From: Alternaria dauci
Lineage: Eukaryota > Ascomycota > Dothideomycetes > Pleosporales > Pleosporaceae
Assembly: GCF_042100115.1 (NCBI RefSeq)
Contig: NC_091275.1
Location: 124,001-188,000, forward strand
Direction: 5' to 3'
Length of the DNA: 64,000 nt
Shown here: in pieces, positions 1-54,875 of the stretch
How positions within the stretch are numbered: the stretch's first letter is position 1
Layout: the number at the start of each line of letters is the position of its first letter
The notes under the pieces: generated by a model
Told to the model about the DNA's origin: nothing
Databases searched by the model: none
Seen by the model: only the letters and a program-made list of their open reading frames with translations
Made by a program: the position numbers and the translations under genes

Positions 1-3000
1 TCGGCCATGGTATGAACCAGGCACACAGTCAATGCGGCACGCCGCTAGAGCTGACATTATGGCGCTGATCCAGTATTCCTCCTTCATCGCCTTGGCCCTG
101 GCGTGTTGCACGGCAGCGCGTAACACAGTGAACCAGCTCGCGTTCTTTGAAAAGAGGTAGCTACTAGATTGGCCATGGCTGTTAACACACTCCCAGTAGA
201 GCTCTTGCGCAAAGTCGCGTCGCGTCTGGCTTCTCAAACCCGAAGTCGCTTCTGGATAAAAGACAGGAAAGATCGACTCGTACTCCCTGTACTGTGTTAG
301 CGGCTGATATTTGAAACGCTAATTGCACGAACCCTGCAGAGAAGGGGTGCTCGCTTTCAGCCCAACGCGTCACCTGCTCTTGCGCCTCCTGTCGTGCCTG
401 CAGTGTTGTTAGGCTTACGCTTTGAGCATTGCCCCGTCCGCCCTTGTTCAGAGCGCGATAGAATTGGTGTGTTACGAAAGCGATTGTCTGCGGCTTCCAC
501 ATCTCTTCGAGCACCTCTACTAGGAACTCTTCTGCGCCACGAGGCCCTTTACCTGTGAGCCCACCAAGCTCACGGAACCATACCTCGCTGTGACAATAAG
601 CGGCAACCTGGGGCCCATAGTGGTGGCGAATGGAAGCAACGTGCATCATAATAGGTCGTCCATTGTCCATGCGCGGCCAACGCACTAGGTTAGCATGGCC
701 ACTGCCTTGCAGATTGAGCATGTTGGGGTCGATAAACGGCCACCCACCCTGCTCAATGCTTTCTATGGTGCAGAGAGGCCCGAGCACTGAGCCCACTAAA
801 GACCGGGGGAACCCAGTAAAGCAGTAGCTGCCAAGGCGATCGAATGCGGCCACACCTTCCGCTAGGGCAAAAGGCAGCCCTTTAGAGCCAGCAGCCTTGA
901 AGCGACGATAAAACTCGTCTGATGCGTGCGCGAACAGACTAGCAAAGGAGGAGAGAACCTTTGGAAAGATGCGTTCTTTGAACGCGAAGAGGACATCAAT
1001 GTAGGTAGGTTGTTCCAGCGAGAAGTACCGGATTAGCTGGAGGATAGGTTGAAGCACTGTCGCAAAATTCCGTTGACCGTCAGCTAACTGCGACACCTGC
1101 ACAGACAGAACTTGCTCCATCCTAAACGCGTACAGTTCTTCCTTTATAGCGGCTTTAATCCGCTGTTGCTCGCGAGCGAACGGTTGGGAAGACGTAGGGT
1201 TATCAGGAGTCTGTTCGCCTCGCAATTTCCGCAGTAAACGCTGCCGCTTCGCCGCTACCCGAGGGTTTAGGTTGCCATCCTGATCTGGCAGCGTCAGGGC
1301 AGCCGTGGCAATGCCCTTGGTAGCAAGTAAGTTGCCGGGGCTATGGCGTATAGTTCGCTTAATGTTGGAGTACGCCTGAAAATAACCACTAGTCAACACG
1401 CTCGCACCGTTGTTCTGATAGCTCATGTTGTCCTCCATTACAGCGAGCACGTTGTCGCGTAGGAATGCTGGGGGCTGCGCGGAGGAGAAGTTGCCGTACG
1501 ATGGATGGAAGGCAAGAGGGTAGAAGGTAAAGTCGCGCGGGTGTTGGTATTGGCGAACAACGTTGTTGCGATTGGCAAGGAGGCAGCGCGCAGGTGCGAG
1601 AATGACACCGACGTCATTAGAGGCGTTAGGGAGGTTGGAAGATGCTATTGAGTGGATGTCGACCGCTAGCGCGTAGGAGACCGTCTCAATGCTCTCCAGT
1701 CTATACTTGTCCTCTAGTGCGCGTAGAAGATCCTGTGTGTAGTTATCAAACGGCTGTTGATGGTCGTGCGGCGGGGGAATTGGATCGCCTGTTTGTGTAC
1801 CGCTCTGTGGGGGCGTAGCCCCCTCTGCGCCGCCTTCGGACCTAGCCGCCGCGTCTTCAGAGTTAGATAAATCATTCTGAGAGTTTGGTAAATCATTCCC
1901 AGAGTTTGACAAATCATTCCTAGAATCAGACGTCTCGCTATCAGAGTCAGACGTCTCGTCATCAGAGTCAGACGTCTCGTCATCAGAGTCAGACGTCTCG
2001 TCATCAGAGTCAGACGTCTCGTCATCAGGGCGCAACCGGGTTTCCTTAGGCAGACTATTGAGTTGCTCAGTAGACAACTCAATTGGAAGGTTCTGCCCGT
2101 AGTCATACGCATGGAACGCTGGCAGGTTCTTAGTCCAGAACGGATCCTGCGTGTTCTTGCGCACGTACTCTGGCCACCCTTCCATGAACTGCTCCTGGAA
2201 CGTTTCCCACTTGACGATTGAGATCGATTGCGACTGGGGTCCATCCAATTTCCAAGAAGCCTCAACACCCTCTCCAAGTAATACGCCTGTAAGGAAGACT
2301 TTCTTAATGTACGACGTAAGGAACAGGGCATGGGAGGGTTTGAGAGCGCTGTGCTCAGACGCCTTCTCGCGGCGTTTGCGACGTTCGCTGCCTGACAGAA
2401 GAGGGTCTACTGTGCTATCGACAGGGTGCATAACAATAAACCAAGATTCGCGCGTTCCACCCTTTGCAAGACGGAAGGTACGATGCTCCATATCAAACGA
2501 CAGTCCGTGGCTGTGTTTAGCGCTGTATGGAGCTCGCCAGTGTTTAAAGCTGATTGTTACGTGGTCGAAGAACGTAGAGAACTTCACAATGGGTTGGAGC
2601 GGCCGGCCGATGATAATGATAAGGTCGAGGTGGAACTCAGGGATAAATTTGTCCTCAGGCTTGGCTGGTCGGGACCCAACGCGCCTCGATCCGTAGTCTA
2701 TCGTGTATCGCTTCTGCAGCATTCCAATAGCCTTACTGCCGTTAAATTCGGGGCTGTCTATCATCTTGATAAATCCCTTCACTACTACGTAGTTACTATA
2801 TGCGTACAAGTAGGATGCTCTTAAACTCACCAGGTAGTCGGTGGTCACCTCCGCTGTGGTCAATAGCCCAGGTAAGTTGATTATTCGCTATTGCGTCTTC
2901 GTCCCCAAGGCTGCTCTCGTGGTATTCTTCTCCATCATGCTCGTCAGGTTCTCTATCGTGCTCATCAGGTTGCACATCTTGGTACAGGCCGTCCTCCTCT

Positions 3001-3056
3001 CCAGCACTGCTGTTATCGTAATCGCTATCGTTTTGTTGTGCAAGATCTAAAGACAT
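1..3056 (-). CDS. Element gene A, orphan 1,170-aa-type protein, left copy (3' end cut by window)
   Basis: I do not recognise this protein. The proposed start is the ATG at 3056, opening an acidic N-terminus rich in D and E. Intron 1 is 2782-2830 (GTGAGT...TAG, 49 bp, phase 1) and intron 2 is 304-373 (GTGACG...CAG, 70 bp, phase 0). Both restore an open frame and remove overlaps between three ORFs. The body has a tandem acidic repeat DDETSDS (near 1920-2030) followed by an asparagine/serine stretch, then a long region without low complexity. The right copy (24593-28224) is complete and gives 1,170 aa. It lies 158 bp downstream of the ParB-like gene on the same strand, so the two may be co-expressed. 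Against the right copy it has a K/E and an R/G change, both from single transitions. Confidence 0.75.
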
Positions 3057-3214
3057 GATGATAAGAACAGTATTATATAAAATAGTACGTTGGCTAAGGG
3101 CTGAGGATCTTGTAGGGTAGATCGATAGATGATGATCGAGAATCACAATATCCAGTGCAGAGGAAAGAGGAGAGGAACAGTGTCTATTGGGTTAGGGCTA
3201 GGGTCAGATACGGA

Positions 3215-5482
3215 TTACTTCCTCCAAGCCCCTCGTTGTTTCTGTCGAGTCTTTTCGCTTGGAGAAGCACTGCCCTCTACAGCTACCTGGTCGCCAAGGG
3301 TGTGTTTCTTACGGTGTTTCTTTCGGGTCTTTTCGCTTAGAGAAGCACTGCCCTTTACAGCTACCTGGTCGCTAAGGGTGCGTTTCTGACGGTGTTTCTC
3401 TCGGGCTGCAGCAAGGTCGCTTAGACTCAAGTCCTCAATCCCCCTGTTTTGAACTTTGGTCTGCTGGGATGCCTTGGGTATGCGCGGCTCAGTTGAGGGG
3501 TGAGAAATTAGCTCTGGGGTAAGCTGGTCCGAACTCGACCGTGCTGAAACGCTACGTGCCGCTTCAGAGACTGTCAGATTGAGCTCTCTCTCTCTGCTAG
3601 ACTCGGCGTTAGAGTGCCTTGCGGGCAGCGGAACCTCTTGACTTGTATTATCAGAGTCTTCTAGAGTGTGTCTAGACATCCATTCAGTGATTGCGACCTG
3701 AATTGTCTCTAGCAAGTCGTTTGCTGCCCTAGTAGACTGGAGCGCAGGTTCGTTGACGACTTCAGGGACCTGACAGATAGCATCACACGCGATTTGTGCG
3801 ATTGTAGGCGTTCGCGCTATGTAGGTATCGCTTTGAATTAGGCACGCCAAGTGCTTGTTGTGCAAGGTTGGCCCTGTGAAACTGGTCACAATTGACAGCA
3901 GTTCTCTCCACACCTTATGCTGGAAGCGTGCGCCGTAGTTCTTGATCTCTGCACTTGGGTACTCGTCAATATAGCGGTCTAGTATAGAGCTTGTGAATGC
4001 TTCCGCATTTTGCTGTACGTGTTGCAGTACTTCTTGTTGGAGGTCAAGAGATTTTTGATCAGCCTGGCCGGCATGCCTGCTCTGCAGCACGGGCACTAGA
4101 TACTTCCGCAGTGCGGGTTTGTTGTTGTCGCTGTCAGACACCTTGGCGGATCCGCTGTTTACCCATTGGCTGACGTGGGTCATAATACTCCTCATAAGCT
4201 TCCCCTCTTTCTTCGGGGTTTTTAAGAGAGCGAGGATGTTTGTGTACGTGTGTGTGGGCTTTGAAAGTACAGTGGAGTATAGCGCATGGTAGGCCTCATT
4301 GCTTAGAGTTGGGAAGAAGCCCTGCCGGCGCGTATGGGAAGGGCCAGGATCCTTGTCTAACTCCTCGCCAGGGTAGAACAGGTCTTGTACGTCATGGGGA
4401 CTTCGTGCCTGGGGCAGGCTAGCTAGCGTGTTCCAGTCTGCTAAACTGGCGTCAACCCCATACTGCTTTCGAATAGATGTAGAGATGCGAAGTACGTTCT
4501 CAAACGCAGCGAACCAATGCTAGACAGTAGATTAGCAAGACAGGTCAGAGTATTTCGGCGGCGGGTTACACATACGTCATCTATCCGACAACTAGCCATC
4601 CACTCAAAAGTGGAGAGATTAAACGTTGCCTGCCCAATTGCGGTAGAACACCAACGCGTAAGCAGGGGCTGCCAGTTTTGATTTCTCCACAGGGTAACTA
4701 GCCGCCGTATTGGGAACTTGACGCGGCTACTAAGCTGAAGATGCTCTCTCATCTCTTTCTCAACTGACTTGCTTGAGCCTTGAAAGAGATTGGCGTTTGT
4801 GCAGAACAGGCTGGTTAACTCGGACCATATCTGGCCATGATTGTCAGGGAGCGTAATATCGGCCCGATTCGCCCGAAGTTTAACACGAGTGTCTGGTGGT
4901 AGCGTGTCTAAAAAGGTTAGGGGCTGTTGTTCACAGTACGCGCGTTAAGGGGCACCCGCCTTTATCGTAGATGCGGCACACCCACCACCTCTCCTCTTCT
5001 CCTAACTGCCGAAGGCGAAGATACTCTTTGAATGCCTCTACACGATGGTGACCCGTAATAAGTTCCGCTGTCCCTCCAGTCACGCTTTTCCAGCTCTTGA
5101 ACGACGGCCATTCCAATCCTTCCTTATCCGCAAACGTGGCAGAAGTAACTGTGCTCTGAGCTGGCAATTCCACCTTCAGATGATGAAGCATCTGCTCTAC
5201 GTGTTCCTTAGAACAGGCAATCTGCAGTTGGTGGCTAGGGTCTCGTCGAAGAATACCAGTTTCGTTAAAGATCTCGCAGAGGCGGCGCTGGTGTGCTGTG
5301 TCAATAGACCTATTGACACCAAAACTCCATTCTGCGCTAAGCGCATCGATTGGAAACTTCGCTATAGCGAGTAGGTATGGCGCAGCTTGTTCGTGGATAG
5401 GAGTTGTCTCTTCAATCTCTGGATCATTCGTACGCTGCCGTTTGCTGTTTTTGGTTAAAACGTTTGCTAGAGGGCGCTTCAT
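3215..5482 (-). CDS. Element gene B, ParB/sulfiredoxin-like domain protein, left copy
   Basis: Three exons (4960-5482, 4576-4907, 3215-4519) total 2,160 nt, giving 719 aa. Intron 2 (4520-4575) is canonical GTATGT...TAG. Intron 1 (4908-4959) appears to be GC-AG, with a CCCCTAACC branch site and TTTTTAG acceptor. It joins the YDK and TLPPDTR segments into an uninterrupted domain. The N-terminus has a basic NLS-like KNSKRQR. Residues ~40-150 resemble the ParB N-terminal fold: an FPIDALS strand, a helix, NETGILRR, and TGHHRVEAF at 143-151 in the place of the ParB GERRxxA box. A segment with LRANR and LPDNHGQIW follows; I recall it from fungal ParB-like hypothetical proteins. The C-terminus carries two ~29-residue basic repeats. 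Possible roles are DNA or nucleotide binding or nuclease; the 34-bp palindromic array starts 158 bp upstream. The domain call is by eye. Confidence 0.72.
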
Positions 5483-5639
5483 TGCAACGTTGTTAGAAAG
5501 AACACAGAAACTAAGGTAAGTGGAAAAGAGATAAGAGAAGGTAAGAAAGCAATAGAGAGGTACTACACAAGGTATAAGTAGGCGAGAAGCCGTCTATTCT
5601 TGCATAGGCCGCTGTAAGTCTAGCGGTGAGTGTTAGTCA

Positions 5640-6475
5640 CTCTCGCCCCCAAGGGCAGCACCTTACGGCAATCCGCGGCTACTATCTCGCCCCTGGGGGC
5701 AGCACTCTACGCCTACTATCTCGCCCCCGGGGGCAGCACTCTACGGCTACTATCTCGCCCCCGGGGGCAGCACTCTACGGCTACTATCTCGCCCCCGGGG
5801 GCAGCACTCTACGGCTACTATCTCGCCCCCGGGGGCAGCACTCTACGGCTACTATCTCGCCCCTGGGGGCAGCACTCTACGGCTACTATCTCGCCCCCGG
5901 GGGCAGCACTCTACGGCTACTATCTCGCCCCCGGGGGCAGCACTCTACGGCTACTATCTCGCCCCTGGGGGCAGCACTCTACGGCTACTATCTCGCCCCT
6001 GGGGGTAGCACTCTACGGCTACTATCTCGCCCCCGGGGGCAGCACTCTACGGCTACTATCTCGCCCCCGGGGGTAGCACTCTACGGCTACTATCTCGCCC
6101 CTGGGGGCAGCACTCTACGGCTACTATCTCGCCCCCGGGGGCAGCACTCTACGGCTACTATCTCGCCCCCGGGGGCAGCACTCTACGGCTACTATCTCGC
6201 CCCTGGGGGCAGCACTCTACGGCTACTATCTCGCCCCTGGGGGCAGCACTCTACGGCTACTATCTCGCCCCCGGGGGCAGCACTCTACGGCTACTATCTT
6301 GCCCCTGGGGGCAGCACTCTACGCCTACTATCTCGCCCCCGGGGGTAGCAACTTGCAGTAACTTGCAGCAACCCGCGCCTACTATCTCGCCCCTGGGGGC
6401 AGCACTCTACGCCTACTATCTCGCCCCTAAGGGTAGTACTCTATAGATACTATCTTACCCCTAGGGGTAGACTTC
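5640..6475. repeat. 34-bp palindromic tandem array (left copy)
   Basis: About 24 cores are spaced mostly exactly 34 bp apart. Each unit holds a self-complementary core, GCCCCCGGGGGC or the variant GCCCCTGGGGGC, flanked by CTACTATCTC and AGCACTCTAC. Spacing is strict between about 5688 and 6330 and decays to the right, where GCAGCAACTTGCAGTAAC-type sequence and AT-shifted cores such as ACCCCTAGGGGT appear. The ORFs crossing the array exist only because 34-bp units lack stops in two frames. It lies directly upstream of the ParB-like gene. Confidence 0.95.
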
Positions 6476-6533
6476 TATAACTACTCTCTTACCTCTAACC
6501 CTATGCTAGTTATACTGTTTACCTCTATAGTAT

Positions 6534-8040
6534 TTAGGGCTTCTTAGTTACTTAAGGCTTCTTAGTTATTTAGGGCTTCTTAGTTACTTAGGGCTTCTTA
6601 GTTACTTAAGGCTTTTAAGATTAATTTATATTAAAGTTAAAGTAAAATAGTAGTAAAGTTTATATTTATTTTATTCTTATAATATTATTAGCTATATAGT
6701 AATATAAATAATAAAACTATATACTTTAGAAATAAATCTTACTATTAGTAATAAAGGATTTAAAAAACTATACTAACTATTACTTAAAATACTTAAAAAC
6801 TCTTTTTTTAAATAAAATAAAAAAAAATTTATTTTTACCTTAAATCTTTTATTAACTTTTAATAAATACTACTTTTAAAATTATTTCTTTCTACTAGTTT
6901 ACTTAATTAAAAATAGCTATATAGTTAGAAGTAGTATATAAAAGGCTATACTTAAGGAGCTATTATATAAGTATACTATTATTTTATTAAATAAGAAAAG
7001 AAGTTAAGGAAAGCTATAGTTTAAAAGTTATTTAGGAAGTAGTAGCTTAGAGTATTATTTATTTAGTATACTAGTATAGAATCTAAGTAAACTACTTACT
7101 ACTTAGATTCTATAAGTAGTATACTTTATATATATATCTAGGATACTATTAAGGAATAAACTAAATAAGCTTTAGCTTATTATATAGTAAGTTAATTAGA
7201 AGTAACTAGTTATTATAAAATAATAAATTATAAAAAACTACTTCTTATTTTTTAAATAACTATACTTAGTAGTTACTAATACTTTATTATACTTTTTTTT
7301 CTTAAAGAAAAAATACTAAATTTTTATAAAATATTTTTTATTTTAAAGTATTAAATATTTTATTCTTTTACTTTATAAATATCTTTATCTTAAATATAAG
7401 TTATACTCTTTTCTTCTTTTTATAAAGTAGTTAAAAGTTATTAAATCTAAGTAAACCTTTATATAAGAATATAGATAAATAAAAAAGTAAAAAAATCTTA
7501 TTTAATATATTACTATATACTATATACTTACCCTTAGTTAAGTAAAATAAATAACTTTTTTTAAAAGGTTTCTTAATTATAGTAAAACTTTATAAATTCT
7601 TAATCTTTATTTAAGTTTTATATATAGTAGTATAAATTTCTTTTATAAAGATAATATAAGAAAGTCTTACTTAGTAGTAACTAGTATTTAGTTAATATAG
7701 CTTTAAACTATCTTTACTTATTACTTAATTAAATACTTAATAACTTTATTCTTACTTTAGTATTTATTATTCTACTTATTTAAATAAAATTTAATTTAAC
7801 TAGCTTTATTTTATACTTTTTCTTTATTTATTACTTTATTATTATAAAGTAAAAGTAGTCTAGTTTTATTACTTCTATAGTAATATTATTAAATAATAAA
7901 TAAGAAAGAAAAAAATTAATTATTATAAATATATTTAGTAGAAAGTATATTTTTTAAAGATATAGTAAAAGGATTACTAACTATTTATACTAATAGATAT
8001 ATAAATTTTTAAAAGATTAGGTAATACTAACTTTAATATT
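6534..8040. other. AT-rich, RIP-like non-coding tract
   Basis: About 1.5 kb of very AT-rich sequence with abundant TA and almost no CA or TG dinucleotides, the pattern left by repeat-induced point mutation. It opens with about four copies of an 18-bp repeat (TTAGGGCTTCTTAGTTAC type, 6534-6615). I find no open reading frame or recognisable protein remnant. Confidence 0.8.
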
Positions 8041-9058
8041 TATTAAAAGTTACTATAATATAAACCTTAACTTACTATAATATAAACCTTAACTTACTAT
8101 AATATAAACCTTAACTTACTATAATATAAACCTTAACTTACTATAATATAAACCTTAACTTACTATAATATAAACCGTAACTTGCTGTAACATGAACCTT
8201 AACTTACTGTAACATCAACCTTAACTTACGGCAACATCAACCGCAACTTACTGCAATATTAACCGCAACTTACTGTAACATGAACCTCAACTTGCTGCAA
8301 CATAAACCTCAACTTGCTGCAACATCAACCGCAACTTGCTGCAACATAAACCTCAACTTGCTGCAACATGAACCTCAACTTGCTGCAACATAAACCTCAA
8401 CTTGCTGCAACATGAACCTCAACTTGCGGCAACATCAACCGCAACTTGCTGCAACATCAACCGCAACTTGCTGCAACATGAACCTCAACTTGCGGCAACA
8501 TCAACCGCAACTTGCTGCAACATGAACCTCAACTTGCTGCAACATGAACCTCAACTTGCTGCAACATCAACCGCAACTTGCTGCAACATGAACCTCAACT
8601 TGCTGCAACATTAACTGCAACTTGCTGTAACATTAACCGCAACTTGCTGTAATATGAACCTCAACTTGCGGCAACATCAACCGCAACTTGCTGCAACATT
8701 AACCGCAACTTGCTGCAACATGAACCTCAACTTGCTGCAACATTAACCGCAACTTACTGCAACATCAACCGCAACTTGCTGCAACATGAACCTCAACTTG
8801 CTGCAACATCAACCGCAACTTGCTGCAACATGAACCTCAACTTGCTGCAACATTAACTGCAACTTGCTGTAACATTAACCGCAACTTGCTGTAATATGAA
8901 CCTCAACTTGCGGCAACATCAACCGCAACTTGCTGCAACATTAACCGCAACTTGCTGCAACATGAACCTCAACTTGCTGCAACATTAACCGCAACTTACT
9001 GCAACATCAACCGCAACTTGCTGCAACATGAACCTCAACTTGCTGCAACATCAACCGT
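8041..9058. repeat. 22-bp tandem array with a RIP gradient
   Basis: About 46 units of 22 bp. Intact units on the right read CAACTTGCTGCAACATGAAC and related variants, each holding the interrupted palindrome TTGCNGCAA. Units on the left (8041-8190) read CTTACTATAATATAAACC, the same sequence after C-to-T and G-to-A changes. An 11-unit (242-bp) higher-order repeat is visible, for example the TTAACTGC variant at 8611 and again at 8853. Confidence 0.95.
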
Positions 9059-9611
9059 GATATATCGTAATGTATAATACAACATACTATAGTACATATT
9101 ACCAACTATTGTACCACCTATTGTACCTTACTATACTACATATTACAGCTTTATACACCCGTATAAGTTCTACATACAGTATATTATTACTTCTCCTCCA
9201 AAATCCTCTTCTGCCTTAACTCCTCTTCTCCCCAACGTAGCCGCAACTCTCCAGAACCGCTTGAAGTTCAGGGCTTTACTTCCAACCCATCTATTGTCAA
9301 ACATATACAGCTGCATACGGTGAACTCAAGGTGTTTAGGAAACACACCTTTACCGCGATTTATTACAGTGTCTTTCAACAGTGTTGTGCTTGCGTCTTTT
9401 ACCAGCACGTTTATTATTTTGATACAGTGTATTATCACTTTAAGAGGAATAGAGTAAGCGCATAAACTCTTACTCTACTACTTCTCTTCATTACTACGTA
9501 CTGGCTTTCAAAGAACAAGAAGAGATCGATATTAGCCTAGTCCCACACTATCCTACTGGGAGGCTTGTCTTCCTTGATCTCCAAATCACCTCCAGCGTCT
9601 CTAGAACCTTT
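9059..9611. other. Intergenic, 3' side of the zinc-knuckle helicase
   Basis: The left half is moderately AT-rich (TATTGTACC and CATATTACAG stretches); the right half has normal base composition. I see no gene, hairpin or repeat that I would support. It presumably holds the 3' UTR and polyadenylation signals of the minus-strand helicase gene. Confidence 0.5.
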
Positions 9612-12600
9612 TCAATCGTACTGGTTCCAGTCGTGTGCTACGTTGCTGCACTGATCTCCACCGTGACCCTCATCATTGCCGGCGTGATCCTCATCATCGT
9701 CAGCGTGATCCTCACCCTCTGGCTTGTCCTTGGCTTCGTCTCCACCATCGTCGGCGTGATCCTCACCCTCTGGCTTGTCCTTGGCTTCGTCTCCACCATC
9801 GTCGGCATGATCCTCACCCTCTGGCTTGTCCTTGGCTTCGTCTCCACCATCGTCGGCGTGATCCTCACCCTCTGGCTTGTCCTTGGCTTCGTCTCCACCA
9901 TCGTCGGCGTGATCCTCACCCTCTGGCTTGTCCTTGGCGTCATCCCGATTCCAGTCATCTCCACCGGAATAGAAAGGAATCCCATCATCATTTGGCTTGT
10001 CCTTGGCGTCATCCCGATTCCAGTCATCTCCACCGGAATAGAAAGGAACCCCATCATCATTTGGCTTGTCCTTGGCGTCATCCCGATTCCAGTCATCTCC
10101 ACCGGAATAGAAAGGAACCCCATCATCATTTGGCTTGTCCTTGGCGTCATCCCGATTCCAGTCATCTCCACCGGAATAGAAATCAATTCCATCACCGTCG
10201 ACGGGGGAGGCTGTGGAAAATGTGGGGAGAGGTCCGTAGTTGGCATCGGGAAACATCTTTATGGGCTCTTCAGTGGCCTGAGAGCCCGCAGCGAAGGCCT
10301 CTATATGCTCGGCGACATTGAACGGGGGGTTGAACTCGCACCAACCTTGAGCCAATTCTGGATCAACGTGCAATTGGATGGCGGATTTTCGGTCTAGGCA
10401 CCATTTCCAAACCTTGTAGTAGGCGAGCTTGACGTACCGCTTGTCCTTGTCGGTCGCACCAGTGTATTCGGCGAGGACGCTCACAGGATTACCAACGATA
10501 ACGAGGAGGGAACGCGCGCGTCCAACGGCTAGGAGCATTCGTGTGGTATGCTTGACGAAACCGAGGTCGCCAGCGTTGGTGGTGTCGAATACAATACCTT
10601 CCTTCTCGGCGCCCTGCATTTTGTCGACTGTGAAGACTTCGACGTCTCGCAGCTGGACGCTAAGTTTGAACAGCTCCTCCTCGTCAACCTGATTGGCTAA
10701 GTGCTCCATGAATCTAGCCAATACGAAGCGGATAGCGGCAACTTGCGCTACATACGGGGTGATGATAGCGACCTGCTTACCAGAAAACCCGCCAGCGATC
10801 ATCTTGCAGACGGCCCGGAGGGTATAGGGAATGAAGTCCTTGTTGTAGCGAGACTTGGTGGCACCGACGATGTCGTGGCTACCTTTGACGCTGACGAAGA
10901 TGACGCGATGGCCGGAGGAAATGTTGAACTGCTCCATCGCGATCTCCATGGCGCGAATGTTTTCTTCCCGGTCATCTACCCCGGGGGCCACTTCCATACG
11001 GCCACGAGGAAGGATGTGGTTGGTGAGAGCGTTGATGTCGGAATTGAAGCGGTACTGTGTGTGCAGGTAAATAGTGGTACAGCCGCCTAGCATCGCACGA
11101 TGGAAGAAAGGTAGGTCCTGCTGATCACTGAAGACGTGACGTTCCTCCGAACCACCGGCAGCAGAAGGCTTTGGCTGATGGATATCGCCGAAGAACAGGT
11201 GGGGTGTTATGGCCTTGCGCTCGACCATCAGCGGGCCCTCGTTATTATAGGCGTGCGTGTACACGAGAGGAGCGAGCGTGCTTGACTCGCTTGACTTGCC
11301 AGCCTCGTCGTGATGAACGGCATACGGCTGCTCGAGCGTATGAGTACGCGGCTGCGAGATTACGTCGGAGGTCATGCCAATGGCTACGGCCAGTTGAGCG
11401 AGGTCCCTAATGATCTCGTTGGTGAGAGCAGTCAGTCGGCGCATGTCATCGGCGTCGAATTCTTGGCCTGAAGCATAGAGGTCGAGCTGAAAACGGAAAT
11501 CGCGGTACTTTTTTGGTTGGGCGATTTCGTGTACCACTAACTCGTTCGTATCGGCATTACGCTCCGGCACTCCGGCGAGGCGCAGAACCCACGCACCCTC
11601 CGACAGCATTTCCAACTGAAGTCGCTTGTCGGTGAAAGACGACTTTGTCTCGGACGTCTCAAGAAGGATGCGGAATTGCGAGTCCACTGTCAGTGCGTCA
11701 AGGAACGCCATGGTCCGCCTGTCTTCACTGGACTTCTCCTGGTAAGCCGCTGCCTGCTCTTTCAGCTGGTCCTTGGTGAAGTGCTCTTCTTCGATGTATT
11801 CAAAGTAGGGCGGCTTCTCGTTCTTTAGCAGGACGTTGCGAGCAGCTTCGGACTCCTTGCGAACAACCGCTGTCTCCGTCTCTTTCATATGGCGTCGGAT
11901 TACGATAGGGAAACGTGCCTGGATGCCAGCGGCCTTGAGCTCCTTCCGTCGCTCTAGGCAGGCCGTGTAGATCCTGAGCATAGCGTCGTCGAGCTGCTTG
12001 TTCAACGGCGACGTGACCCAGAAAGCAGCAAGGCGACCAAGGCCATGGATAACGCCAGTTTGTTGAGCCTCGTAGTGCGCAACAGCCAGAGCCTCGATGA
12101 TGCGTGTCTTGCCAACGCCACCAGGACCTTGGATGAGCGCTACACCACCGGCAAGGGCGCGAAGCTTCTGCAAAACGTCGGGTTGGAGTGAGCGGTTCAG
12201 ACGCTCCATGATGCTGTCCTTAGCACCGTTGTCTCCCAAATACGCGAACATGCCGGCGAAGTAGTCCACGATCTTGTCGTCTGGGAAGCGAAGGTAGGAG
12301 TTGTGGAGGATTTGAGTGACATCGCTAAAGGCATCGCCGCCTCGGAAGTAATGGTTAAGGGCGTTGATCTGGCGCTTGATTCCCACGGTGGCAGGGTTCA
12401 AGCGAGCAAAGACGTAGATGCCGCGAAGCTTACGCAATGCCTCTTCAGCTTCAGGCAAAGTACGATAGTTAAATGCACAGCTGTAGTGAACGCCCTCCTT
12501 GAACAGGGGCTGCTCGGCGAAGGATGCACCCAAGCGAGGGCGGTAGAGAAAGCCGCCTATGTAGCTAGCGGGCGTGATGCCTGCGGACGGTTTGATCTCA

Positions 12601-21188: not shown

Positions 21189-21252
21189 CGTAACTTGCCC
21201 TCGCTGGCAACCAACCGTTGCGGCAACTTGCGTCCCAAGCCATATCGCAACC
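21189..21252. repeat. Detached fifth copy of the 68-bp repeat
   Basis: This matches the 68-bp unit from the CCCTCGCT segment through GTTGCGGCAACTTGCG to CATATCGCAACC, with a few substitutions. It shows that the ~960 bp between it and the main array, which carries the small broken ORF and the MITE, is bracketed by repeat copies. Confidence 0.85.
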
Positions 21253-21696
21253 TTGCAGCTGGAACATTCGGACGCTTTAACTACCTTAGGGCTGGCGCTC
21301 CAACCTTCTTCACGCTGCACCTCTAAAGGCAAATACTAGTGTTATATTATTTGGAACTGCGCTCTTAGATGTACGAGGCAGAGCGACCCTCCCTATCTAG
21401 GACTACCTCTTTGAGATCTTTCGTGTCTTCAACAACTAAACTTTAGTATTCAATATTATATAAGAATAGCACTCTAAAAAGAGAAATAACATGTATTCTA
21501 CACTCAAGGACGCGACCTCTTCTGGGATTAGGGACCGTACTCTACCTTGTTAGTCGGTGCGACTATATGCCGCACCTTGCCGGCACGCCCTGGCCCCCTG
21601 CTTTCCATGCCACGTCTTCTTTTCTCTGCTGTTATTCTTACTACTTTTCTACCCACACACTAATCGCTGGCTTAGAGCGTCAGCCTTGGTTCTAAA
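21253..21696. other. Intergenic, upstream of element gene E
   Basis: About 444 bp with a pyrimidine-rich stretch (about 21600-21660) shortly before the gene E start, as is common in fungal promoters and 5' UTRs. No other element recognised. Confidence 0.5.
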
Positions 21697-23687
21697 ATGG
21701 ATCAGTTACAGCTCGATAGTGACCATTGTCAGGATAAACACAGCGGAAGAGGCTTTCCTGCACAGTGGGACGCTACAGTCGCTAACAACTTAGCATACAG
21801 CCCACCTAACCCGTCCTACAGCAGATTTCTTGCGCGTCGTCTCGCAGAACCATGCCGTGTACCAGGCGATGTACGATACGCGGGATGGATCGTTCCAGAA
21901 GTAGGCGACGACGAAGCGTGCAAGCCGGTTTTCATAGCCCACTCGACACTAGATGCGATATGGCTGCTGAAAGAGACGCTGGGTGCCAGCACACTTGACG
22001 CAGAAAATTGGGGGCGTCTCACAAGCGCTGCTATGGACTTTGCTAGTAGTAAGTCTCTAGAGCCTAGAAACTTAACTACAGCGCGGCTAATGACGCCAAC
22101 GGAAGGCATCGCGGAGGACCGCATGGCTATAGACTCAGACAAGGACGATAGCATACCGCCATCAGCACAGAGGGCTACAGGCGACCTTGTGCCGTACCGT
22201 AAACGTCCAGCCTCCTCATCGCCTATTCGCAGCGAGATCCGTGCCAACAGCTTAAACCGCCTAGCAATACAGGAGGACAGCGCGGACGAATCGACGGCTA
22301 GGGCTAGCGAAGTCAACACTATGACAGTACACGCTGGCAAAGACACAGCTAGAGCGGAGGGGGGACACGAGCGCGGAACAAGCGACGAGGACAGCGAAAA
22401 CCAGAGTGCGACGACGCCTCTATCCGTAAAGAGGTCCGCAACAGTTACAAACAAGAATCGTCTTGCAGAGCTACGGCGTACAAGAAAGCTAGAAAGATCG
22501 CGTGTAATAAAGCTCGAGGCGATAGGCTTAAAGGAACCGCCTGAGAAGATGCCTGCGCAGGAACGTATGGCGTACGGCAGCATTGCGCCAGACGATGAGC
22601 CGACGATCTCTTGGATCTTCAAGCAAAAAGTCGCGGAAGATGCTGATTTCTATACAGCCTCGCCAACACCCTACTATACTGCCTGCAGCATGCTAGCAAA
22701 AGCGCGTGCTTTTGGAAATGCAACCTCGCAGTACAGCGCTGCGCAGTTCCTGCATAATTGGCGGAAACAGGGCACGCCGTTCTTGGTAAAACCAGTAGAT
22801 CGTTATGTTCTTACCCAGACGCAAATGTCGCAGTCAGTGGATAGTAGCGCAACACTTCATACTGATGCCGACAATGCATTCTGCTTTGCCTGGGACATGT
22901 GCACACGGTACGAGACGATGCTTGCAGCTGTAAACATTGGCACTCGCTGGGCTTTCGCTTTGCTAGGGAAGGCGTACGCTCGCAAGGTCGACGAAATCCA
23001 GGTCGCTGATCGTCTAGCCAGTAACGACAGAACTCGCAACAGGTACGGGAAGGGCCAGGCACGAACAGAGGCTATCACATATTTGGTCCATCTGGTTTGC
23101 CAATCACCATCTAAATCTGACCACGCAGCCTTTCGTTACCGCCTAAAGCGAGCGACACGATGGTTCGACATAGTTCAAGCTCTAGGCTGGGGATCGCTGC
23201 TGCTCATACCCCACGAAGAGGTCTCAAACCATTGGCTCGAGCGTGTGCTGCGGAAGAACCAGCGCGATGTTTTTCTTGAGCTAGTGAAGCGCGAACGGCC
23301 GGAAATTTGCACGGCAAGCAGGGCCCTCGAAGCCTGGCTAGGGCCGGATGGAATTACTGGTGCGCCGATTGCTGGAAAGGAGAGGCTTAGCATTGAAGCG
23401 AATGCGCTAGCTACGGCGGTGGGGTTAACAGAGATTCCAGACAGCGAAGCCGAAGATGACACTGATTCTGACGCATCGGAAAGTATCCCGGCATCGCCGG
23501 CGCCATTGCGACAGATGTCGGTACTTGAATTATTCTGTCCTGTAAGCCCTATAGGTTGAACAATAAACCGGGTTACCTGACGACCCTGAACTATGCGCTG
23601 CGGAAAAAGAGTGATGGGCTCGAAGAGCACAATGCTGAGCTTCTAGCGACACTCTACGGAAGTAGTGAGGTAGACGAGAGTTGCTAG
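21697..23687 (+). CDS. Element gene E, orphan 640-aa protein
   Basis: I do not recognise this protein. Exon 1 is 21697-23541. A 68-bp intron (23542-23609, GTAAGC...AAAAAG, CTGAAC branch-like site, phase 0) replaces a short read-through end with a coding-like second exon ending LYGSSEVDESC at 23687. Without the intron the frame stops at 23559 (620 aa). Residues ~1-120 look globular (FLARRLAEPCRVPGD, YAGWIVPEVGDDE). Residues ~130-260 are charged and disordered-looking, with RTRKLERSRVIKLEA forming a basic helix. Residues ~300-560 are globular with many aromatics (FKQKVAEDADFYT, FLHNWRKQGTPFLV, WFDIVQALGWGS). The tail is acidic and serine-rich. It converges on gene A of the next unit. No signal peptide or membrane segment is seen. 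Confidence 0.72.
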
Positions 23688-24592
23688 TCATAGCGGTGCT
23701 TATTAGCAGGTGGGGTGTATGCGTCCGTGTTGCGGAAGCTTGCCAATTTAGTGTTAGGCTAGGTCTGTCGTCTAAGTCACCGGCTGTACCGTGGCTCTCG
23801 ACGATTACAGCCTGCTAGGAAGCTGCTGTCGTATTGCGATACAGATAAGTCAACAACACCGCAGGCTACAAATCTACAAATAACTACAAAGAAGAGCGAA
23901 ACACATAGCGGCTTCCTCTCTTTTCCTTAAAGGTTGCCGCGCAAGGTGCTATTACCTTTGCCTGCGGAGAATAGTAACAGGATGCCTCTACACTGTGCTA
24001 CTTCAGCCACTAATGCAATGTAGACTTCGCAGGCTCTATTCTCTAGTGCCTGCGTCTTTTTACTATTACGTTAATTATGTAAATAGTAGAGAAGAGACAC
24101 AGTTAAGATTAAGAAACGGATTACATGCGACAACGATAGTACGGTTAATATTGGGGTTGGTGTTTTTCTGAATTTACAGTTAATACGAAATATTTTAAAA
24201 AATCATAACACTACGTAACGTGTATTAATCTCTTCAAAAGCTGTATAGGATAGAAGATGTATATAGTATATACGTGTTTTATAGGAGAGAAGATGTAAAA
24301 TTATAGTGGAAGCTATAATAGCTTACTCTACACTGGGGACTCCTGTATAATAGTATGACATCGGTCAACCCATGCATAATCAGAACTACCAAACACGCAT
24401 TGAATAAAACCTTTAGCATCGCTCCGTAGTCGCATTAACTCTGTACGTCTCTTCTCAAGAACGGAATCATAGTTGATCGCTATGTCGCTGTTCCTTGGGG
24501 AGTCTCGACGCCCACTAGTAACCCGAATCCATTGCAGTTGTCGAAGGAAGCGGTTGTTGCAACCTTTGTGCTCTACCCCAGATAGTACTATG
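23688..24592. other. Intergenic between convergent genes E and A
   Basis: About 905 bp between two gene 3' ends. It turns AT-rich from about 24050 to 24330. I see no ORF, tandem repeat or inverted repeat to report. Because it also closes the unit, one junction between successive units could lie anywhere in it. Confidence 0.5.
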
Positions 24593-27500
24593 TTAGCAAT
24601 GCTTCTTACTTGGGAAAAGGGCCTCTCTTAGGGAAGTCTTACCAATCTTCTTCGTCATCTCCCGTACCGAAAGCACCCAACCATCGTCTTCCTCCGACGG
24701 GAAGTAATCTGGTCGAAGAGACCAGAGCATTCTTGTTACCAAGGCGGCCGCAAACATTTCAGAGTTCTTGGTTGGTCCTTTGGAAAACTCAGTCGCATTC
24801 ACCGCTACAGTAGGGGTAGCTGAAGAGGATGCAAGGGTTAACACCAACATGAGCATTAGATCGCATTTTGGCTGACCTAAGCACTCGATGAGGCACTGAC
24901 GTGCTCTGTGGTAGTGTTCACGAACCTTCTGATTCATGCCGGACTTTGAGAACTGGCCGTCCAACTGCTGAAAACCTTTTTCAACTAGCGGCGGGATGGC
25001 GTTAAAAGGGATTTGGCAACCAAAGTCGATAGTACTCTTTGTTTGCGAGCGCCGCTTTGCTTGGTGTACTGCCTCAATCGCTGCCCGCTTGAGGCTGCCC
25101 GGTCTCGCCGCTATAGCGGATGGGGCCGGAACGTTACCGACTAGCCGCGTCATTCTCCGGTAGCTCAATCGGCCATGGTATGAACCAGGCACACAGTCAA
25201 TGCGGCACGCCGCTAGAGCTGACATTATGGCGCTGATCCAGTATTCCTCCTTCATCGCCTTGGCCCTGGCGTGTTGCACGGCAGCGCGTAACACAGTGAA
25301 CCAGCTCGCGTTCTTTGAAAAGAGGTAGCTACTAGATTGGCCATGGCTGTTAACACACTCCCAGTAGAGCTCTTGCGCAAAGTCGCGTCGCGTCTGGCTT
25401 CTCAAACCCGAAGTCGCTTCTGGATAAAAGACAGGAAAGATCGACTCGTACTCCCTGTACTGTGTTAGCGGCTGATATTTGAAACGCTAATTGCACGAAC
25501 CCTGCAGAGAAGGGGTGCTCGCTTTCAGCCCAACGCGTCACCTGCTCTTGCGCCTCCTGTCGTGCCTGCAGTGTTGTTAGGCTTACGCTTTGAGCATTGC
25601 CCCGTCCGCCCTTGTTCAGAGCGCGATAGAATTGGTGTGTTACGAAAGCGATTGTCTGCGGCTTCCACATCTCTTCGAGCACCTCTACTAGGAACTCTTC
25701 TGCGCCACGAGGCCCTTTACCTGTGAGCCCACCAAGCTCACGGAACCATACCTCGCTGTGACAATAAGCGGCAACCTGGGGCCCATAGTGGTGGCGAATG
25801 GAAGCAACGTGCATCATAATAGGTCGTCCATTGTCCATGCGCGGCCAACGCACTAGGTTAGCATGGCCACTGCCTTGCAGATTGAGCATGTTGGGGTCGA
25901 TAAACGGCCACCCACCCTGCTCAATGCTTTCTATGGTGCAGAGAGGCCCGAGCACTGAGCCCACTAAAGACCGGGGGAACCCAGTAAAGCAGTAGCTGCC
26001 AAGGCGATCGAATGCGGCCACACCTTCCGCTAGGGCAAAAGGCAGCCCTTTAGAGCCAGCAGCCTTGAAGCGACGATAAAACTCGTCTGATGCGTGCGCG
26101 AACAGACTAGCAAAGGAGGAGAGAACCTTTGGAAAGATGCGTTCTTTGAACGCGAAGAGGACATCAATGTAGGTAGGTTGTTCCAGCGAGAAGTACCGGA
26201 TTAGCTGGAGGATAGGTTGAAGCACTGTCGCAAAATTCCGTTGACCGTCAGCTAACTGCGACACCTGCACAGACAGAACTTGCTCCATCCTAAACGCGTA
26301 CAGTTCTTCCTTTATAGCGGCTTTAATCCGCTGTTGCTCGCGAGCGAACGGTTGGGAAGACGTAGGGTTATCAGGAGTCTGTTCGCCTCGCAATTTCCGC
26401 AGTAAACGCTGCCGCTTCGCCGCTACCCGAGGGTTTAGGTTGCCATCCTGATCTGGCAGCGTCAGGGCAGCCGTGGCAATGCCCTTGGTAGCAAGTAAGT
26501 TGCCGGGGCTATGGCGTATAGTTCGCTTAATGTTGGAGTACGCCTGAAAATAACCACTAGTCAACACGCTCGCACCGTTGTTCTGATAGCTCATGTTGTC
26601 CTCCATTACAGCGAGCACGTTGTCGCGTAGGAATGCTGGGGGCTGCGCGGAGGAGAAGTTGCCGTACGATGGATGGAAGGCAAGAGGGTAGAAGGTAAAG
26701 TCGCGCGGGTGTTGGTATTGGCGAACAACGTTGTTGCGATTGGCAAGGAGGCAGCGCGCAGGTGCGAGAATGACACCGACGTCATTAGAGGCGTTAGGGA
26801 GGTTGGAAGATGCTATTGAGTGGATGTCGACCGCTAGCGCGTAGGAGACCGTCTCAATGCTCTCCAGTCTATACTTGTCCTCTAGTGCGCGTAGAAGATC
26901 CTGTGTGTAGTTATCAAACGGCTGTTGATGGTCGTGCGGCGGGGGAATTGGATCGCCTGTTTGTGTACCGCTCTGTGGGGGCGTAGCCCCCTCTGCGCCG
27001 CCTTCGGACCTAGCCGCCGCGTCTTCAGAGTTAGATAAATCATTCTGAGAGTTTGGTAAATCATTCCCAGAGTTTGACAAATCATTCCCAGAATCAGACG
27101 TCTCGCTATCAGAGTCAGACGTCTCGTCATCAGAGTCAGACGTCTCGTCATCAGAGTCAGACGTCTCGTCATCAGAGTCAGACGTCTCGTCATCAGGGCG
27201 CAACCGGGTTTCCTTAGGCAGACTATTGAGTTGCTCAGTAGACAACTCAATTGGAAGGTTCTGCCCGTAGTCATACGCATGGAACGCTGGCAGGTTCTCA
27301 GTCCAGAACGGATCCTGCGTGTTCTTGCGCACGTACTCTGGCCACCCTTCCATGAACTGCTCCTGGAACGTTTCCCACTTGACGATTGAGATCGATTGCG
27401 ACTGGGGTCCATCCAATTTCCAAGAAGCCTCAACACCCTCTCCAAGTAATACGCCTGTAAGGAAGACTTTCTTAATGTACGACGTAAGGAACAGGGCATG

Positions 27501-28224
27501 GGAGGGTTTGAGAGCGCTGTGCTCAGACGCCTTCTCGCGGCGTTTGCGACGTTCGCTGCCTGACAGAAGAGGGTCTACTGTGCTATCGACAGGGTGCATA
27601 ACAATAAACCAAGATTCGCGCGTTCCACCCTTTGCAAGACGGAAGGTACGATGCTCCATATCAAACGACAGTCCGTGGCTGTGTTTAGCGCTGTATGGAG
27701 CTCGCCAGTGTTTAAAGCTGATTGTTACGTGGTCGAAGAACGTAGAGAACTTCACAATGGGTTGGAGCGGCCGGCCGATGATAATGATAAGGTCGAGGTG
27801 GAACTCAGGGATAAATTTGTCCTCAGGCTTGGCTGGTCGGGACCCAACGCGCCTCGATCCGTAGTCTATCGTGTATCGCTTCTGCAGCATTCCAATAGCC
27901 TTACTGCCGTTAAATTCGGGGCTGTCTATCATCTTGATAAATCCCTTCACTACTACGTAGTTACTATATGCGTACAAGTAGGATGCTCTTAAACTCACCA
28001 GGTAGTCGGTGGTCACCTCCGCTGTGGTCAATAGCCCAGGTAAGTTGATTATTCGCTATTGCGTCTTCGTCCCCAAGGCTGCTCTCGTGGTATTCTTCTC
28101 CATCATGCTCGTCAGGTTCTCTATCGTGCTCATCAGGTTGCACATCTTGGTACAGGCCGTCCTCCTCTCCAGCACTGCTGTTATCGTAATCGCTATCGTT
28201 TTGTTGTGCAAGATCTAAAGACAT
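24593..28224 (-). CDS. Element gene A, orphan 1,170-aa protein, complete copy
   Basis: Three exons (27999-28224, 25542-27949, 24593-25471) total 3,513 nt, giving 1,170 aa. Splicing out 27950-27998 (phase 1) joins the acidic N-terminus to KGFIKMIDSPEF; splicing out 25472-25541 (phase 0) joins ARQEAQEQ to PLTQYREYESIF. Seen regions: an acidic N-terminal ~75 residues; a globular part with GRPLQPIVKFSTFFDHV and HGLSFDMEHRTFRLAKGG; the DDETSDS repeat plus Asn/Ser linker; a long globular part with aromatic-rich segments (FYPLAFHPSYGNF, YCFTGFPRSLVG); and a C-terminal helical part ending in a basic-acidic tail. No catalytic motif is recognised, and no transposase triad or tyrosine-recombinase signature stands out. 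The protein is intact in the complete copy, with no stops, so it is probably functional. Confidence 0.78.
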
Positions 28225-31200
28225 GATGATAAGAACAGTATTATATAAAATAGTACGTTGGCTAAGGGCTGAGGATCTTGTAGGGTAGATCGATAGATGA
28301 TGATCGAGAATCACAATATCCAGTGCAGAGGAAAGAGGAGAGGAACAGTGTCTATTGGGTTAGGGCTAGGGTCAGATACGGATTACTTCCTCCAAGCCCC
28401 TCGTTGTTTCTGTCGAGTCTTTTCGCTTGGAGAAGCACTGCCCTCTACAGCTACCTGGTCGCCAAGGGTGTGTTTCTTACGGTGTTTCTTTCGGGTCTTT
28501 TCGCTTAGAGAAGCACTGCCCTTTACAGCTACCTGGTCGCTAAGGGTGCGTTTCTGACGGTGTTTCTCTCGGGCTGCAGCAAGGTCGCTTAGACTCAAGT
28601 CCTCAATCCCCCTGTTTTGAACTTTGGTCTGCTGGGATGCCTTGGGTATGCGCGGCTCAGTTGAGGGGTGAGAAATTAGCTCTGGGGTAAGCTGGTCCGA
28701 ACTCGACCGTGCTGAAACGCTACGTGCCGCTTCAGAGACTGTCAGATTGAGCTCTCTCTCTCTGCTAGACTCGGCGTTAGAGTGCCTTGCGGGCAGCGGA
28801 ACCTCTTGACTTGTATTATCAGAGTCTTCTAGAGTGTGTCTAGACATCCATTCAGTGATTGCGACCTGAATTGTCTCTAGCAAGTCGTTTGCTGCCCTAG
28901 TAGACTGGAGCGCAGGTTCGTTGACGACTTCAGGGACCTGACAGATAGCATCACACGCGATTTGTGCGATTGTAGGCGTTCGCGCTATGTAGGTATCGCT
29001 TTGAATTAGGCACGCCAAGTGCTTGTTGTGCAAGGTTGGCCCTGTGAAACTGGTCACAATTGACAGCAGTTCTCTCCACACCTTATGCTGGAAGCGTGCG
29101 CCGTAGTTCTTGATCTCTGCACTTGGGTACTCGTCAATATAGCGGTCTAGTATAGAGCTTGTGAATGCTTCCGCATTTTGCTGTACGTGTTGCAGTACTT
29201 CTTGTTGGAGGTCAAGAGATTTTTGATCAGCCTGGCCGGCATGCCTGCTCTGCAGCACGGGCACTAGATACTTCCGCAGTGCGGGTTTGTTGTTGTCGCT
29301 GTCAGACACCTTGGCGGATCCGCTGTTTACCCATTGGCTGACGTGGGTCATAATACTCCTCATAAGCTTCCCCTCTTTCTTCGGGGTTTTTAAGAGAGCG
29401 AGGATGTTTGTGTACGTGTGTGTGGGCTTTGAAAGTACAGTGGAGTATAGCGCATGGTAGGCCTCATTGCTTAGAGTTGGGAAGAAGCCCTGCCGGCGCG
29501 TATGGGAAGGGCCAGGATCCTTGTCTAACTCCTCGCCAGGGTAGAACAGGTCTTGTACGTCATGGGGACTTCGTGCCTGGGGCAGGCTAGCTAGCGTGTT
29601 CCAGTCTGCTAAACTGGCGTCAACCCCATACTGCTTTCGAATAGATGTAGAGATGCGAAGTACGTTCTCAAACGCAGCGAACCAATGCTAGACAGTAGAT
29701 TAGCAAGACAGGTCAGAGTATTTCGGCGGCGGGTTACACATACGTCATCTATCCGACAACTAGCCATCCACTCAAAAGTGGAGAGATTAAACGTTGCCTG
29801 CCCAATTGCGGTAGAACACCAACGCGTAAGCAGGGGCTGCCAGTTTTGATTTCTCCACAGGGTAACTAGCCGCCGTATTGGGAACTTGACGCGGCTACTA
29901 AGCTGAAGATGCTCTCTCATCTCTTTCTCAACTGACTTGCTTGAGCCTTGAAAGAGATTGGCGTTTGTGCAGAACAGGCTGGTTAACTCGGACCATATCT
30001 GGCCATGATTGTCAGGGAGCGTAATATCGGCCCGATTCGCCCGAAGTTTAACACGAGTGTCTGGTGGTAGCGTGTCTAAAAAGGTTAGGGGCTGTTGTTC
30101 ACAGTACGCGCGTTAAGGGGCACCCGCCTTTATCGTAGATGCGGCACACCCACCACCTCTCCTCTTCTCCTAACTGCCGAAGGCGAAGATACTCTTTGAA
30201 TGCCTCTACACGATGGTGACCCGTAATAAGTTCCGCTGTCCCTCCAGTCACGCTTTTCCAGCTCTTGAACGACGGCCATTCCAATCCTTCCTTATCCGCA
30301 AACGTGGCAGAAGTAACTGTGCTCTGAGCTGGCAATTCCACCTTCAGATGATGAAGCATCTGCTCTACGTGTTCCTTAGAACAGGCAATCTGCAGTTGGT
30401 GGCTAGGGTCTCGTCGAAGAATACCAGTTTCGTTAAAGATCTCGCAGAGGCGGCGCTGGTGTGCTGTGTCAATAGACCTATTGACACCAAAACTCCATTC
30501 TGCGCTAAGCGCATCGATTGGAAACTTCGCTATAGCGAGTAGGTATGGCGCAGCTTGTTCGTGGATAGGAGTTGTCTCTTCAATCTCTGGATCATTCGTA
30601 CGCTGCCGTTTGCTGTTTTTGGTTAAAACGTTTGCTAGAGGGCGCTTCATTGCAACGTTGTTAGAAAGAACACAGAAACTAAGGTAAGTGGAAAAGAGAT
30701 AAGAGAAGGTAAGAAAGCAATAGAGAGGTACTACACAAGGTATAAGTAGGCGAGAAGCCGTCTATTCTTGCATAGGCCGCTGTAAGTCTAGCGGTGAGTG
30801 TTAGTCACTCTCGCCCCCAAGGGCAGCACCTTACGGCAATCCGCGGCTACTATCTCGCCCCTGGGGGCAGCACTCTACGCCTACTATCTCGCCCCCGGGG
30901 GCAGCACTCTACGGCTACTATCTCGCCCCCGGGGGCAGCACTCTACGGCTACTATCTCGCCCCCGGGGGCAGCACTCTACGGCTACTATCTCGCCCCCGG
31001 GGGCAGCACTCTACGGCTACTATCTCGCCCCTGGGGGCAGCACTCTACGGCTACTATCTCGCCCCCGGGGGCAGCACTCTACGGCTACTATCTCGCCCCC
31101 GGGGGCAGCACTCTACGGCTACTATCTCGCCCCTGGGGGCAGCACTCTACGGCTACTATCTCGCCCCTGGGGGTAGCACTCTACGGCTACTATCTCGCCC

Positions 31201-31701
31201 CCGGGGGCAGCACTCTACGGCTACTATCTCGCCCCCGGGGGTAGCACTCTACGGCTACTATCTCGCCCCTGGGGGCAGCACTCTACGGCTACTATCTCGC
31301 CCCCGGGGGCAGCACTCTACGGCTACTATCTCGCCCCCGGGGGCAGCACTCTACGGCTACTATCTCGCCCCTGGGGGCAGCACTCTACGGCTACTATCTC
31401 GCCCCTGGGGGCAGCACTCTACGGCTACTATCTCGCCCCCGGGGGCAGCACTCTACGGCTACTATCTTGCCCCTGGGGGCAGCACTCTACGCCTACTATC
31501 TCGCCCCCGGGGGTAGCAACTTGCAGTAACTTGCAGCAACCCGCGCCTACTATCTCGCCCCTGGGGGCAGCACTCTACGCCTACTATCTCGCCCCTAAGG
31601 GTAGTACTCTATAGATACTATCTTACCCCTAGGGGTAGACCTCTATAGCTACTCTCTTACCTCTAACCCTATGCTAGTTATACTGTTTACCTCTATAGTA
31701 T
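25169..31701. repeat. 25-kb element, second copy of the repeated part
   Basis: This is the direct repeat of 1-6,533. The copies are so similar that every ORF coordinate in it equals the left one plus 25,168. Identity stops at 31,702. Because both genes in the repeat are intact in both copies, the duplication is recent or maintained. Confidence 0.97.
28383..30650 (-). CDS. Element gene B, ParB/sulfiredoxin-like domain protein, second copy
   Basis: Same structure as the left copy: exons 30128-30650, 29744-30075 and 28383-29687, 719 aa. No coding difference from the left copy was noticed. The ParB-like box TGHHRVEAF is at 143-151. The GC-AG first intron (30076-30127) is unchanged, so if that donor were a disabling mutation both copies share it. 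The stop is 158 bp upstream of the gene A start; the palindromic array begins about 158 bp upstream of the ATG. Alternatives to a partition function are a sulfiredoxin-fold nuclease or a transcriptional regulator. Confidence 0.72.
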
Positions 31702-31814
31702 CTCGCCCCTAAGGGTAGTACTCTATAGATACTATCTTACCCCTAGGGGTAGACCCCTATAGCTACTATCCTACCTCTAACCCTATCCTAGTTATACTGT
31801 TTACCTCTATAGTA
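30808..31814. repeat. 34-bp palindromic array, second copy, with extra terminal 113-bp duplication
   Basis: This repeats the left array, but the final 113 bp (31588-31700, from TCTCGCCCCTAAGGGTAG to TACCTCTATAGTA) is duplicated at 31701-31813 with a few C/T changes. After 31,814 the sequence changes abruptly to transposon remnants, so this is the visible right boundary of the element array. Confidence 0.9.

Positions 31815-53735: not shown

Positions 53736-54875
<1,140 letters not shown>

Follow-up and report, generated by a model that had tools for sequence, protein, structure and literature searches.

In Saccharomyces cerevisiae, the Y' repeats lie next to the telomeres in tandem, code for a helicase and are homogenised, and in fungi more widely the usual telomere-linked helicases are RecQ genes. 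Recombination between chromosome ends is the usual explanation for subtelomeric helicase repeats, which are seen as its passengers. Here we describe an element of about 25 kb at the chromosome ends of Alternaria dauci, starting from a window of 64,000 nucleotides (C4:124001-188000) near the left end of contig 4 (C4) in a genome of 34,901,638 bases (34.9 Mb) on 10 contigs. Several described systems invite comparison. In Colletotrichum higginsianum, helicase elements of 11.3-18.5 kb are present at all 24 ends, single and in one orientation, and form three families that encode a RecQ-type helicase and DUF3505 and lie between the telomere and unique DNA (PMC5576322). RecQ genes are also reported near telomeres in Mycosphaerella graminicola (PMC4522978) and Agaricus bisporus (PMC7473861), and the FoTeR telomeric retrotransposons co-localise with telomere-linked helicases (PMC12857005). 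In Pyricularia, a 4-kb subtelomeric repeat was amplified after telomere failure and is bounded by interstitial telomeres (PMC8381367).

Self-alignment of the window pairs positions 1-6,533 with 25,169-31,701, gapless and at 99.94% identity (4 mismatches in 6,533), as expected from the first-pass annotation, which had proposed near-identical, collinear copies in direct tandem. Because of this pairing, taken with the positions of the edge described below, we place one complete unit at 6534..31701 (25,168 bp, from a distal 18-bp array to a proximal edge); positions 1..6533 belong to the next unit towards the telomere and hold its inner part, with genes A and B, a 34-bp array and the edge.

Translated searches of the genome find 36 copies of gene A (all 38 candidates scored), 34 full copies of gene E plus two cut by contig ends (all 39 candidates scored) and at least 31 copies of gene C (from the 31 candidates scored out of 45; no copy is listed at C2 right). 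Tallied together, these copies place the element at 19 of the 20 contig ends, with C7 right as the exception. All copies are oriented alike toward their own end (36/36 for gene A, 34/34 for gene E and 31/31 for gene C), and chance origin is excluded because the 36 copies of gene A share this orientation. Telomere adjacency and a single orientation at many ends, the features by which telomere-linked RecQ elements are recognised, are thus both found here, and the earlier suggestion of a subtelomeric amplification unit is confirmed by copies in fixed orientation at 19 of 20 ends. Counted by gene A, the arrays comprise six units at C4 left, four each at C1 right and C3 right, three each at C5 right and C8 right, and two each at C2 right and C6 right, with a spacing of 24.1-27.1 kb inside arrays; the other 12 ends carry single units.

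The proximal edge of the unit is the sequence TTTACCTCTATAGTAT, found on the + strand at 31686..31701 in the inner unit of the window and at 6518..6533 in the outer one. It occurs at 40 places in the genome, all alike relative to the nearer end, whereas the reversed control has 0. The place most distant from its contig end, at 220 kb, is in C3 right, where the contig overruns the telomere junction by 119.6 kb. We read the bases beyond the edge (114 per flank) at each of the 19 ends with an element and at two copies that lie deeper inside. At the 19 ends the edge adjoins 18 distinct flanks, and the 21 flanks include one related pair. The long flanks of C4, C3 and C6 left (32, 14 and 4 kb) have nothing in common by blastn. 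An exact edge that adjoins different flanks is what characterises a terminal mobile element. Since homologous exchange carries flanking homology, the junction of an exact edge with unrelated DNA points to terminus-specific joining. The first-pass guess of mobility is strengthened by this exact edge joined to many different flanks, while self-movement of the element is a step that we infer.

The joins between units extend this pattern. We examined seven of them, five at C4 left and one each at C1 right and C3 right. In five of the seven, TTAGGGCTTC from the 18-bp array of the next unit comes after the edge. This array retains 4-30 copies in C4; about 61 copies are counted beside the C4 left telomere. 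In the window, the edge at 6518..6533 is joined to 4.5 copies of this array (TTAGGGCTTCTTAGTTAC, 6534..6614, + strand). In the remaining two joins the 18-bp array is lost and the edge is joined within the AT-rich linker, at the equivalent of window position 6,734 in C4 and near window position 6,975 at C3 right, the latter placed by eye with one mismatch, an exact-match search having given none. The edge is also joined into a 34-bp array at 31,588, which produces the 114-bp duplicate of the edge region (31702..31815, + strand, second edge copy at 31800-31815) that closes the element in the window. Receiving sites whose unbroken form is known have TAT or AAT at their end, or TAC in the case of some 18-bp repeats. 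At C4 left, no run of three or more CCCTAA or TTAGGG lies between units. The arriving edge is constant while the receiver is shortened to a variable extent, which fits the loss of an end followed by the addition of a new element. The tandem had previously been attributed to circular or concatemeric intermediates or to unequal exchange; these are not the best account on their own, given that the element's own edge abuts a shortened next unit in seven joins, with no telomere run in C4 left.

The opposite side of the element faces the telomere. Those left ends that we read start with (CCCTAA)n, after which come CGGTTACAG, the 18-bp array, the AT-rich linker, a 22-bp array and gene C. The distal junction with the telomere, CCCTAACGGTTACAGCTTCTTAG, is nearly constant: it is found at 17 exact places and at 14 of the 19 ends, with variants at C5 left (longer by a single base) and C2 left (a shorter form). 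The junction lies inside the contig in C3:3325539-3445196 and C4:3421415-3442401, and the last kilobase of C4 is non-telomeric and has no Rfam match; these internal junctions at C3 right and C4 right are possible assembly joins or end fusions.

Patterns of variation among the units bear on their age. We compared eight units, six from C4 left plus those of C6 left and C3 left, over alignments that cover 16.7-21.8 of 21.8 kb. Leaving aside the 68- and 72-bp arrays, where the alignment is ambiguous, nine sites are variable, and each of them is a C/T difference at CpA or a G/A difference at TpG. In-frame stops occur in seven of the 36 copies of gene A (TAG) and in five of the 31 copies of gene C (TAG or TAA). 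The AT-rich linker (6620..8040) carries a complete signature of repeat-induced point mutation (RIP), with a CpA/TpG index of 0.0 and a GC content of 0.147, yet is nearly unchanged across the compared units, which therefore appear to go back to a single ancestor that had already undergone RIP. An older copy is recognisable at C8 left from a further edge that lies 24.7 kb deeper in the chromosome. Over 601 bases near this edge, the older copy agrees with gene B in purine or pyrimidine at 596 positions and in the identical base at 437, and 156 of 164 changes are C>T or G>A. The converted sites are 75 of 79 at CpA/TpG, 67 of 76 at CpG and 14 of 154 at other C or G, so that this older copy, which has the same edge, is RIP-destroyed. 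It is truncated or interrupted, because 401 bases sampled about 11 kb outward are not unit sequence. A further edge copy at C1:55761-55776, which lies inward of the C1 left element by 29 kb, probably marks a second old copy.

RecQ-like genes lie inward of the units at C5:32016, C8:35686, C8:2661228, C3:3203138, C3:3212081 and C9:2613732. In-frame stops interrupt four of these six; two (at C5 and C3 right) are open. No match to the recQ model falls within a unit; the matches are found inward of the units at C3, C5, C8 and C9 or in other parts of the chromosomes, and gene C is a superfamily 1 (SF1) helicase; a RecQ identity of the unit is thus rejected. With a fresh unit outside and a RIP-dead unit and RecQ relics inside, the ends read like a succession of elements holding chromosome ends, in which the present element took over from earlier occupants.

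Taken together, we give a probability of roughly 60% to an explanation by terminal addition, in which a telomere-terminal element that has a defined inner edge is added to chromosome ends. Under this explanation, a chromosome end would lose its telomere, and the inner edge of an element copy would be joined to the broken end through an AT/TAT overlap of two to three bases. The chromosome would then be capped again, because the copy bears the 18-bp array and the telomere junction at its other end, where telomerase would maintain the TTAGGG run. A telomerase RNA-binding domain is encoded in two pieces at C8:1169027-1169472, and a TAG within one piece may lie in an intron. Repeated loss and healing would build the head-to-tail arrays, recombination between ends would copy and homogenise the units, and RIP would destroy old copies. 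The copying or joining is likely to be done by proteins A, C and D; we infer joining by the element's proteins, a DNA copy as donor and telomere loss as trigger. We are more tentative about a further step, possible but short of probable, in which the element is a self-encoded terminal transposon free of reverse transcriptase and thus a new class of mobile element, whose defined DNA edge heals broken ends, which carries its own telomere seed and which uses protein A, an SF1 zinc-knuckle helicase and a SNF2-like motor.

Several observations weigh against terminal addition. The flanks of C2 left and C8 right are related (95% over 109 bases, offset by five), so that copying between ends also occurs, and these two ends may represent one event copied. 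The near identity of the units means that such copying could explain much of the copy number. No telomere junction was found at C2, C5 and C6 right, and the C3 right and C4 right contigs extend 119.6 and 21.0 kb beyond theirs; for these reasons, a few ends must be regarded as imperfectly assembled. Nested junctions are also seen, two at C3 left (C3:1-720) and three at C6 left (C6:1-1245); at these tips a telomere run, CGGTTACAG and a short 18-bp array are followed by a telomere run again. Pfam finds no mobility enzyme in the unit. No conserved synteny elsewhere came to light, as the 29,877-bp metagenome contig with a relative of the helicase (P0007) is not among the contigs with gene A matches. 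Finally, the evidence comes from one genome, and no extrachromosomal form is known.

The rival that survives best is a passive subtelomeric repeat like yeast Y', spread only by break-induced replication and unequal exchange, with its proteins as passengers or recombination helpers. The nearly identical units, the spacing of 24.1-27.1 kb within arrays, the flank common to two ends and two C4 joins that have the same short array, and may be mutual copies, all agree with it, and ordinary recombination between ends must indeed act as well, because the units are near-identical. Homologous copying does not, however, explain one exact edge against 18 distinct flanks, and it leaves the joins at two places in the AT-rich linker unexplained. 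We therefore consider a purely passive repeat unlikely, although it is the most serious competitor to terminal addition.

A non-autonomous terminal retroelement, in which, as in HeT-A, an enzyme from another locus would reverse-transcribe an RNA copy onto the end, would account for terminal addition, a fixed edge and a short overlap, which are what target-primed reverse transcription leaves. This origin is improbable, as the unit retains predicted introns, has genes on both strands and shows no reverse transcriptase domain in Pfam scans of its long frames. An even smaller chance attaches to the integration at chromosome ends of a viral genome or of a plasmid, linear or circular. Head-to-tail arrays and several genes of its own would suit such an origin; a free form is not known, and Pfam finds no polymerase, capsid or recombinase. 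The first-pass description of the unit as plasmid-like or viral-like gains no direct support, given that no replication protein is found by Pfam and that genes C and A have no relative in viral contigs. An assembler that repeated one copy could have produced the overrunning contigs at C3 and C4 right and the missing junctions at C2, C5 and C6 right, but as the sole cause assembly error is excluded by a RIP-aged copy and by copies that differ in flanks, array lengths, in-frame repeat numbers and point changes.

The genes of the unit do not include a familiar mobility enzyme. Pfam scans of its long frames find no reverse transcriptase, transposase, integrase or Rep domain, and the unit's frames match no DNA polymerase B, capsid, recombinase or Pif1 family and no DUF3435 tyrosine recombinase, the Starship captain. 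The earlier statement that none is present therefore holds as far as Pfam can tell. Gene C (9612..14018, - strand, starting at Met24 of the open frame 9612-14087) encodes an SF1 helicase of UPF1 type with CCHC zinc knuckles; its Pfam matches, AAA_12 (3.6e-27) and zf-CCHC (1.6e-18), substantiate the SF1 zinc-knuckle helicase named by the first-pass annotation. Gene D (14604..19634, + strand) is an open frame of 1,676 codons that had been called a SNF2-like ATPase. SNF2-like motifs are recognised by eye in its C-terminal half, and Pfam, NCBIfam, PDB-sequence and protein searches give this identity no support. The silence of the protein searches for C and D is weak evidence, because they scored only the 7,999 (C) and 8,000 (D) candidates sharing most words.

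Gene A (24331..28224, - strand, about 1,190 amino acids, predicted introns) is longer than first annotated; a relative (P0022) shows that it extends through the frame at 24,593-25,486 to about 24,331. Protein A belongs to an undescribed fungal family and has 68 relatives outside the Alternaria dauci genome, three of them in the named ascomycetes Pyrenochaeta sp. MPI-SDFR-AT-0127, Dactylonectria macrodidyma and Lindgomyces ingoldianus. A chromosome-internal match to gene A at C5:2795912-2796028 (39 residues at 59% identity) is possibly a relic of another element lineage. Gene B (28383..30650, - strand) has its structure corrected to three predicted exons (30650-30150, 30091-29744 and 29687-28383; 717 amino acids). 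In Pfam, DUF3723 appears only as a sub-threshold hint in one exon and is gone with the whole protein. Gene E (21676..23559, + strand) is a 627-codon frame, and two overlapping open frames at 20241..20769 (+ strand), with no significant Pfam match, form a possible small sixth gene. Open frames range from 1,462 to 1,531 codons across copies of C and have 894 or 901 codons in A. In-frame tandem repeats are found at 9695-10182 (gene C), 15996-16597 (gene D) and 1922-2028 (gene A).

The first-pass annotation listed three satellite-like arrays; as a correction, the arrays include the telomere-side 18-bp array and the inner-edge 34-bp array, and repeats are present inside the frames of A, C and D. 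In the 22-bp array (8050..9057), the six distal copies (8050-8190) are RIP-mutated and the others are not, as if RIP of the adjoining AT-rich linker had spilled into the array and then stopped. A 68-bp array lies at 19950..20224, and the 34-bp array, which has a CCCCCGGGGG dyad, lies near the inner edge at 30844..31657. Inward of the element, the chromosome-specific flank (31816..64000) shows strong RIP at 36000-44000 and host genes from about 45 kb. One flank gene (61757-64000, running off the window end) has a DIT1_PvcA piece and an AMP-binding enzyme domain and is secondary-metabolism-like.

The finding of one exact edge against 18 flanks suggests that chromosome ends gained the element by terminus-specific events, and the old question of whether such repeats move themselves therefore becomes testable. 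If the element does move without a reverse transcriptase, it would be a DNA-based counterpart of the telomere retroelements of Drosophila, living in a fungal genome where telomerase is still encoded. Protein A, for its part, opens a fungal family that has not been described.

A literature search, with most subscription papers outside its scope, found no description of such an element. Like the telomere-linked RecQ elements of Colletotrichum higginsianum, it is long, helicase-coding, terminal and in one orientation, with the telomere on one side and chromosome-unique DNA on the other; unlike them, it measures about 25 kb, is in tandem at seven ends and combines an SF1 helicase with a putative SNF2-like ATPase and protein A (PMC5576322). 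With the head-to-tail arrays of Pyricularia it shares a place at ends thought to have failed, although the units here are bounded by the element's own edge and not by interstitial telomeres (PMC8381367). The serial terminal addition that we propose, the single orientation and the fixed edge recall MoTeR and FoTeR (PMC12857005), Drosophila HeT-A and TART (PMC5537684) and rotifer Terminons (PMC10175614). Unlike these telomeric retroelements, no reverse transcriptase is found here and the inner junction is not a telomeric repeat.

Starship elements are likewise large, multi-gene and ascomycete; the present element differs in having no DUF3435 captain by Pfam and in being terminal and of high copy number (PMC10175614). 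The Rep/HUH domain and Pif1 helicase that mark Helitrons were not found in Pfam scans of the unit's frames, nor were the polymerase B, integrase or capsid matches expected of a Maverick/Polinton or double-stranded DNA virus.

With yeast Y', the element shares a telomere-adjacent position, tandem arrangement, a helicase gene and homogenisation; it differs in its class of helicase, in having several genes and in the lack of a telomere run between units in C4 left. The element thus resembles telomere-linked systems in place and orientation and departs from them in having neither a RecQ helicase nor a detected reverse transcriptase, and in being larger, multi-gene and arranged in tandem.

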